64,000 bases of DNA, from positions 2,472,670-2,536,669 of the forward strand of contig NZ_KV917376.1 of NCBI RefSeq assembly GCF_002019695.1. The letters are read 5' to 3'. Shown one piece after another: positions 13,028 through 13,487 of this stretch. A program made the position numbers and the translations under genes. The stretch is from Evansella clarkii. GTDB lineage: Bacteria > Bacillota > Bacilli > Bacillales > Salisediminibacteriaceae. The notes beneath the pieces were generated by a model that ran no database searches, was not told the DNA's origin, and was given only the letters and a program-made list of their open reading frames with translations. The stretch's first letter is position 1. Each line of letters opens with the position of its first letter.

Positions 13028-13058
13028 GCGGGTGTAGTTTAGTGGTAAAACCTCAGCC
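13028..13058 (+). pseudogene. Truncated tRNA-Gly (5' 31 nt)
   Basis: The first 31 bases are identical to the intact tRNA-Gly at 13182 (acceptor strand, D arm and start of the anticodon arm, ending CTCAGCC). The sequence then changes abruptly to the 79-bp repeat that starts ACGAGC. About 30 bp of upstream leader is also similar in the two copies. It cannot fold as a tRNA. Confidence 0.85.
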
Positions 13059-13137
13059 ACGAGCAAAGCATCCATGAAACAGCAGCGAGTTGTCTCGACG
13101 TATCGACTCCAAAGCAATACTAGCAGAGGAAGAGACA
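13059..13137 (+). repeat. 79-bp repeat, copy A, fused to tRNA-Gly fragment
   Basis: Begins ACGAGC and ends AGCAGAGGAAGAGACA, with the conserved centre CGAGTTGTCTCGACG. It has the same 79-bp length as copy B at 13280, with the conserved blocks in the same positions and variable sequence between them. It contains no open reading frame of note. Confidence 0.8.
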
Positions 13138-13181
13138 TGTCCGGTCGGGAGAAGCAGTTGAAGTCTAAACATAATAAACAT

Positions 13182-13255
13182 GCGGGTGTAGTTTAGTGGT
13201 AAAACCTCAGCCTTCCAAGCTGATGTCGTGAGTTCGATTCTCATCACCCGCTCCA
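13182..13255 (+). tRNA. tRNA-Gly (TCC)
   Basis: A complete 74-nt cloverleaf. The acceptor strands GCGGGTG and CACCCGC pair, the anticodon arm TCAGC-CTTCCAA-GCTGA exposes TCC at 13214-13216, the T arm contains GTTCGATTC, and CCA is encoded. It reads glycine GGA codons. Confidence 0.95.
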
Positions 13256-13262
13256 TTATAAT

Positions 13263-13279
13263 GTCCCAGTAGCTCAGCT
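13263..13279 (+). pseudogene. Truncated tRNA-Arg (5' 17 nt)
   Basis: GTCCCAGTAGCTCAGCT is identical to the first 17 bases of the intact tRNA-Arg at 13411, then switches to the 79-bp repeat (copy B). The switch again comes directly after CTCAGC plus one base, as in the glycine fragment. Confidence 0.75.
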
Positions 13280-13358
13280 ACGAGCCTTCGCTTCTTCGAA
13301 ACCCATCGAGTTGTCTCGACGGATAGACTTCGAAGCGACTCGAGCAGAGGAAGAGACA
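13280..13358 (+). repeat. 79-bp repeat, copy B, fused to tRNA-Arg fragment
   Basis: Same length and same conserved blocks as copy A: ACGAGC at the start, CGAGTTGTCTCGACG in the centre, AGCAGAGGAAGAGACA at the end. The intervening parts differ from copy A, so the two are not a very recent duplication. Confidence 0.8.
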
Positions 13359-13410
13359 GGATAGGATCTGGCTTCAGATCAAAAAAAACTAAATATTATT
13401 ATTATACATT

Positions 13411-13487
13411 GTCCCAGTAGCTCAGCTGGATAGAGCAACGGCCTTCTAAGCCGTCGGTCGGGAGTTCGAATCTCTCCTGGGACGCCA
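13411..13487 (+). tRNA. tRNA-Arg (TCT)
   Basis: A complete 77-nt cloverleaf. GTCCCAG pairs with CTGGGAC, the anticodon arm ACGGC-CTTCTAA-GCCGT exposes TCT at 13445-13447, the T loop has TTCGAAT, and CCA is encoded. It reads AGA codons. Confidence 0.95.

Follow-up and report, generated by a model that had tools for sequence, protein, structure and literature searches.

The tRNA-Gly/tRNA-Arg locus of Evansella clarkii carries two copies of a 79-nt body, each joined to a copied 5' fragment (head) of the tRNA gene which follows it. The body recurs as an exact unit with a conserved structure and a recurring layout before tRNA genes, it is spread over many tRNA types and genera, and the heads are conserved. 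The reading preferred here, to which a probability of about 0.55 was assigned, is that of an ORF-less, RNA-structured insertion cassette which is moved in trans and whose tRNA-linked form is maintained; in this reading we infer both the movement and the role of the head. The analysis started from a stretch of 64,000 nt of this genome (the window), in which the following features were located:

4328-4412, + strand: uninterrupted carrier repeat C, the empty-site counterpart of copies L087 and L025 (90.9% and 89.4% identity to their joined flanks)
12854-12882, + strand: promoter-like site TTGACT-17-TATATT upstream of the tRNA operon (consensus scan)
13028-13058, + strand: extra 5' head of tRNA-Gly, 31 nt, identical to 13182-13212
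13059-13137, + strand: body 1, 79-nt structured cassette (91 bits, the top model match of the genome)
13138-13181, + strand: spacer and second leader
13182-13255, + strand: intact tRNA-Gly (tcc)
13263-13279, + strand: extra 5' head of tRNA-Arg, 17 nt, identical to 13411-13427
13280-13358, + strand: body 2, 79 nt (78.3 bits)
13359-13364, + strand: tRNA-Arg sequence resuming 3' of body 2, GGATAG, the same as 13428-13433
13411-13487, + strand: intact tRNA-Arg (tct)
13499-13526, + strand: terminator-like hairpin at the operon end (consensus scan)
16699-16783, - strand: dispersed body copy in carrier family A, with another small repeat within its P2 side (55.2 bits)
32555-32631, + strand: dispersed, diverged body copy (52.1 bits)

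Positions 12854-13526 look like a single tRNA operon with a promoter-like site, tRNA-Gly(tcc), tRNA-Arg(tct) and a terminator-like hairpin. The scans alone barely exceed shuffled sequence: that for promoters found two sites against a shuffle mean of 1.2 and is weak taken alone, and that for terminators found two, being one site on both strands, against a mean of 0.7. A comparable promoter-like site was seen by eye at the matching position in relatives. The first-pass annotation of this locus had described 31 nt of tRNA-Gly and 17 nt of tRNA-Arg, each running into a 79-nt body after CTCAGC plus one base, and this was confirmed, with heads identical to the intact genes and with bodies of equal length and common ends and centre (57 of 79 positions identical, gap-free). 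The duplicated leader which it saw before tRNA-Gly is visible but imperfect. It had overlooked the two dispersed copies at 16699-16783 and 32555-32631, both distant from the tRNA genes of the window, as well as the GGATAG after body 2; as the tRNA-Arg sequence resumes right after this body, the Arg unit is an interrupted tRNA copy.

The transcript of the body is predicted to form a compact two-helix fold, with P1 (containing a tandem G.A, kink-turn-like) followed directly by P2 (UGUCUC/GAGACA) with a purine-rich internal loop. Across 132 distinct sequences, 94.4% of the cells in this structure are standard pairs, and 148 cells were double-changed against 34.8 (sd 4.0) in shuffles, a count exceeding every slid control. 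Two helices and one isolated pair covary in an alignment that was fitted to P1 and P2, with pair 72-111 being added after inspection of that alignment; this pair is kept in 131 of 131 rows, with both sides changed in 15. The P2 pairs, 72-111 and 2-62 came near the top of a scan of all column pairs, while RNAalifold alone predicted P2 and nothing else. P2 is made up entirely of Watson-Crick pairs, six in number, in 240 of 290 distinct copies, and wobbles are so scarce there (about 20 cells out of 1740, compared with 14 that are C.A or A.C, both orders counted) that a DNA hairpin is also conceivable. The tandem in P1 consists of two pairs, of which the first is G-A in 259 and the second A-G in 272 of 279 copies; the inner stem (C-stem) is weak, its first pair being G-C in 126 of 128 sequences and its second pair being formed in 60 of 128. 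Folding of the two window bodies as single sequences gave z values of +1.00 and -2.13, with no consistent signal. A search of the body region against Rfam returned only tRNA at the gathering score and nothing convincing at E up to 5.

Within the genome of E. clarkii, 53 places were matched by blastn using the region as query, and at least 119 copies were found with a covariance model built from 35 copies, the best 150 of 2123 candidates being scored. A 15-nt core pattern with one mismatch allowed was detected 105 times, against 5 for the reversed control. The covariance model detected the body in 36 of 60 genomes including that of E. clarkii; eight other genomes of the genus contain 47 to at least 78 copies each, and 25 genomes from other families contain 0 to 17. 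With a stricter cut, the body was found in 13 of 398 Bacilli genomes (E. clarkii included), all 13 within the order of E. clarkii. A pattern scan of named genomes placed headed bodies in at least 25 named genera among the matches listed, including Halalkalibacter, Oceanobacillus, Halobacillus, Evansella, Geobacillus, Anoxybacillus, Shouchella and Cytobacillus; 19 of the 116 pattern-scan loci had no model match, 16 of them being by title from outside Bacillota, one from Oscillospiraceae and two from Bacillaceae.

Flanking sequence was analysed for 112 of the 119 copies of E. clarkii, the remaining 7 having no fetched flanks. Twelve of the 112 are tRNA-linked and the remainder lie mostly within families of intergenic, hairpin-rich repeats; 4 overlap an ORF of at least 150 aa. 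Several of these copies are arranged in pairs, convergent at 21-22 nt apart (L012, L026, L066, L084) or divergent at 16-37 nt apart (L018, L013, L011, L020, L021), and both kinds recur as large inverted repeats. Many bodies of family A, among them that at 16699-16783 on the minus strand and L034, L036, L045 and L041, contain a second small hairpin repeat ending in GCGACGAGTAACCGCAGGAGC inside their P2 part, at times in tandem, so that insertions are nested in insertions.

The body was also observed in some unusual locations. A 3.3-kb segment of Geobacillus zalihae (genome G061, contig C86, 7421-10727) contains at least 13 bodies, with 31 matches in the whole genome. In Anoxybacillus amylolyticus, four bodies are located on plasmid pDSM15939_1 (L267) and one on pDSM15939_2 (L266); those of L267 precede tRNA genes with matching heads, from which it follows that the units can travel on plasmid tRNA arrays. 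A search of a phage collection gave no match to the element, and the sole viral contig with bodies is a prophage-like contig of IMG/VR (L149), on which two lie in opposite directions about 4.2 kb apart amid phage-like ORFs. A contig titled as a Bacteroidia MAG (L255) scored exactly as an Anoxybacillus locus (L240) did in the model search, and its body was pooled with an identical one; the contig is probably misbinned.

The first-pass annotation had proposed insertion into tRNA genes, and had named a majority of copies away from such genes as an argument against this. In the E. clarkii genome the majority is indeed elsewhere, 100 of 112 copies having no tRNA gene in the fetched flanks, but the picture is reversed in low-copy relatives. 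For these, 12 genomes were picked by kinship and copy number, regardless of heads, and 29 of their 40 matches were examined: in 25 of the 29, the sequence immediately before the body is a 5' fragment, exact or nearly so, of the next tRNA downstream, with nine tRNA types represented. Two further low-copy matches (G017, via L123), one of them headed, stand outside this count. A larger set comprised 216 distinct bodies from 156 loci, for which 224 of 229 model matches were carried on (those dropped being two contig-end cuts, two L091 rows repeating L123 and one weak part in L117). In this set 179 bodies are headed, 137 of them mismatch-free, and the heads represent 11 tRNA types, which bears out the proposal that one body was repeatedly joined to different tRNA heads; as most of the loci came from the pattern for the CTCAGC junction, Gly is favoured (96 of 179). 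With tRNAs of other isotypes drawn at random as the source of the head, 1.3 of 196 bodies would pass. A tRNA gene on the same strand was found within 250 nt downstream of 190 of the 216 bodies and none on the opposite strand within that distance, the median gap from body to tRNA being 45 nt, and no body was found with the head of solely an upstream tRNA. The 37 bodies that did not count as headed include 20 whose locus contains no tRNA downstream of them; 10 of these 20 sit no more than 130 bases from the end of the locus, and inspection by eye reveals a tRNA head in most.

The length of the head is near-constant for each tRNA type: 31 nt for Gly, 14 for fMet, 17 for Asn and 17 for Ala, Val and Arg (18 in two Arg units), with Thr at 24 or 26, Met at 27 or 11 and Lys mostly at 16-17 or 26. 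CTCAGC, which had been suggested as the insertion junction, does occur as such, but it is merely one among several, others being GAGCA (fMet 14 nt; Met 27; Phe, Thr and Lys 26), TAGC (11), AGTT (Lys 17) and AGAG (24). By the usual tRNA numbering, these insertion points presumably fall in the D-loop, at the D-stem edge and in the anticodon loop. The tRNA sequence resumes for at least 3 nt after the body in 37 of 83 non-Gly units, about 1.3 being expected at 1/64. In L024, the Lys head of one unit is interrupted by a further body. It should also be noted that in G003 (L272; L120) an Arg unit is followed by no tRNA detectable by ARAGORN, since the tRNA-Arg(tct) is split in its anticodon loop by a second insert of about 0.3 kb, with its 3' half intact. 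This insert contains the word AAGATATAGTCC, which we take to be one from group I introns; it gave no Intron_gpI match in Rfam.

The exactness of the unit was apparent from empty sites. For 37 of the 112 copies, the joined flanks match an uninterrupted carrier elsewhere in the fetched DNA of the same genome (identity of at least 75% on both sides, with any known copy more than 15 nt away), and several unrelated carriers are involved. Gaps near the junction were absent from 16 of these sites, numbered 1 to 3 in 20 and 5 in one. Examples are CCCGACCGGA[body]GTCTCC against CCCGAAGGAGTCTCC (93.5%) and CATGGCCTCA[body]GCCTCC against CATAGCCTCAGTCTCC (93.8%); weaker ones are carrier C, whose right side differs by 4-5 nt, and the carriers with GCAGGG, for which the match on that side is also poor. 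A looser pass gave 94 of 112 and was set aside as it mixed in filled copies. No target-site duplication was found at the matched empty carriers. Terminal inverted repeats are absent, the ends ACGAGC... and ...GAGACA not being inverted and the TGTCTC repeat of P2 being internal. The left side has no fixed target word, the neighbours there including AGCC, AGCT, AGCA, AGTT, AGCG, AGGA, CGGC, TTCA and TCCA. The empty sites may represent either the ancestral state or exact losses.

Relatives with an uninterrupted single tRNA, which the first-pass annotation had anticipated, were found for the Gly-Arg locus itself (L133, L134, L135, L137, L138, L140, L141 and L142), with orthology judged by eye from the order of the genes and the sequence upstream. 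At this locus the Gly unit is present in eight genomes and absent from at least eight. A tree of 189 headed bodies showed 59 changes of tRNA label, although it is noisy owing to the 79-nt length. Among the 83 non-Gly bodies open to comparison, the closer body belongs to a different tRNA type within the same genus for 45 and to the same tRNA type outside it for 33, with 5 ties; for 51 Gly bodies the corresponding numbers are 5 and 46. These counts are rough as the genus labels mix names and codes. The label changes and the nearest-body counts together suggest that bodies entered tRNA genes repeatedly, while the Gly units look largely inherited.

The extra head is kept by selection or conversion. 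In 155 units adjoining their tRNA, it is 0.95-1.00 identical per position, and identity in the leader is 0.85 at -1 and drops to about 0.4 beyond -13. At the Gly locus of eight genomes the values are 0.954 for the head, 0.781 for the body, 0.438 for the spacer, 0.429 for the leader and 0.992 for the head of the intact tRNA; the contrast between head and surroundings is overstated in both sets as they were partly selected on the head (in the Gly-locus set, on the final 14 bases of it). Even so, homology between some spacers can be recognised where the heads barely differ.

The main rival to the insertion cassette is a cis-acting RNA of tRNA operons, in which head and body would act in the nascent transcript to tune tRNA maturation, either through competition of the extra head for the tRNA 3' half or through recruitment of a protein by the kink-turn-like part, with the dispersed copies of one lineage being secondary escapes. 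The ancestral-looking context is tRNA-linked (25 of 29), the tRNA follows at a short median distance, the head is conserved while leader and spacer drift, and the unit lies between a promoter-like site and the tRNA, all of which would suit such a role. Against it, the unit is patchy, with at least as many genomes lacking it as carrying it at the Gly-Arg locus, and more than 100 dispersed copies have no tRNA and no preference for the direction of neighbouring genes. In a folding model of 60 of the 132 units, the acceptor strand paired with the extra head at 0.88 against 0.07, but units with a shuffled middle gave a near-equal preference (0.85 against 0.05), and this folding is thus no evidence of design; 41 of the 60 were slightly above their own shuffles in head-switch folding. 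A cis-acting role of this kind is regarded as possible but rather unlikely.

For the preferred insertion cassette, it is proposed that the unit enters (or leaves) host sequence exactly and without target duplication, and that it has two kinds of host, copies of tRNA genes and structured intergenic repeats. In tRNA operons the order found is tRNA head, body, short spacer and intact tRNA, a layout through which the tRNA survives and the cassette resides within the operon. Movement in trans may proceed via an RNA which becomes joined, at AGC-like sites, to tRNAs and to further RNAs with structure; homology to the tRNA could then guide its return to DNA next to the tRNA gene. The head would be retained since the head-body transcript, or the identity of the head with the tRNA, matters. 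A route at the RNA level is favoured on three grounds, namely conservation of the fold, the structured nature of the hosts and the start of head identity at the tRNA 5' end, and from these we infer the step itself. A bolder version holds that the 79-nt domain itself catalyses or templates the joining to tRNAs and structured RNAs at AGC-like sites, as a minimal mobile RNA which would be intron-like with no reading frame, the layout then being a chromosomal record of RNA-level insertion into bacterial tRNAs. This is considered quite improbable.

No mobilising enzyme is encoded by the element: the unit, consisting of 79 nt plus spacer, has no ORF within the body and no integrase, and an autonomous copy with a gene was not found, the core pattern being almost confined to known copies among the matches listed. 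At the DNA level, a single-stranded DNA element akin to IS200/IS605 or REP, mobilised in trans by a Y1 transposase, would agree with the lack of an ORF and of target duplication, with two end-to-end hairpins and with the rarity of wobble pairs, and a Y1 match was present in all 15 genomes with at least 33 copies. On the other side, the body-bearing genomes G014, G017, G031, G046 (11 copies) and G049 had no Y1 match, no carrier repeat adjoins the three Y1 genes examined in E. clarkii, and the left side lacks a fixed short target word. Y1 stays the best DNA-level candidate for dispersal, but as an account of the whole it was given little chance.

Equally slim is the chance of ordinary recombination, by which an old repeat landed once in a tRNA copy, spread via shared D-arm words (CTCAGC, TAGAGCA) and then underwent tandem duplication. 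Junction words are common to several tRNAs and near-identical unit arrays occur in L010 and L106, as this would predict; yet the body has identical ends in unrelated carriers with empty counterparts, and heads are near-identical where leaders are not. A single ordinary duplication of the tRNA region, which the first-pass annotation had named as a simpler origin, fails to account for the many tRNA types and the exact empty sites.

The remaining readings were rejected as sole explanations. A tRNA intron was set aside as the 3' half is missing from the interrupted copy; a leader riboswitch at the dispersed copies was set aside by neighbour gene orientation (of 56 copies with both neighbours found, 18 were co-directional, 26 had both opposite, 7 divergent and 5 convergent); a MITE by the lack of both terminal inverted repeats and target-site duplication; an IS110-derived element by the lack of a match to IS110 transposase (PF02371) in carrier genomes G003 (at least 78 copies), G015 (66) and G011 (36); and a known intron, ribozyme or riboswitch class by the lack of an Rfam family match.

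The tRNA-derived SINEs of eukaryotes consist of a 5' tRNA part fused to a repeated ORF-less body. The likeness to SINEs which had been suggested holds for this layout and for the tRNA-derived head (179 of 216; 25 of 29), but the cassette is bacterial, involves many tRNA types instead of one lineage, is followed by an intact tRNA, and has neither target duplication at its carriers nor a tail that could be seen. Five carrier genomes, each with at least 33 copies (G004, G006, G015, G023 and G026), gave no match to the reverse transcriptase family RVT_1 (PF00078), and on this feature a SINE-like retroelement was rejected.

Other known systems were also compared. MITEs, REP/BIME, BOX-type repeats and bcr1 of the Bacillus cereus group are likewise short, intergenic, hairpin-forming, ORF-less and of high copy number, whereas the cassette lacks a terminal inverted repeat and target duplication and has the tRNA-head layout. 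Elements that integrate at tRNA genes and bring with them a copy of the tRNA end share the direct tRNA repeat and the restored intact tRNA; the cassette differs in that its head is a 5' one, that head and leader are separated by a total of about 125 nt, that it has no integrase and that the tRNA sequence resumes behind the body. The group I introns known from tRNA genes are also RNA-structured inserts, but the cassette has 79 nt and no Rfam match, and its interrupted copy is without the 3' half.

Kink-turn RNAs bound by L7Ae-type proteins, such as OLE RNA with OapC (PMC9723947), resemble the body in the tandem G.A beside a short bulge and belong to the same bacterial group, while size, copy number and context differ and the second pair of the inner stem is weak in the cassette. 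PMC2267715 names bcr1 and gives the Bacillus halodurans repeat Bhal-1 as 74 bp with 36 copies; H. halodurans DSM 497 has 7 model matches, so that on these counts identity with Bhal-1 looks unlikely. A search of the accessible literature yielded no recognised description of the element, and it matches none of the known kinds considered, each failing at least one of the defining features tested.

If the preferred reading holds, a structured RNA without a name, attached to duplicated tRNA heads, is a component of tRNA operons throughout a large family of bacteria, where it accompanies many tRNA types at positions that hardly vary. It would then be an insertion element of a new kind, which enters exactly and encodes no enzyme, or else a novel regulatory component of these operons.
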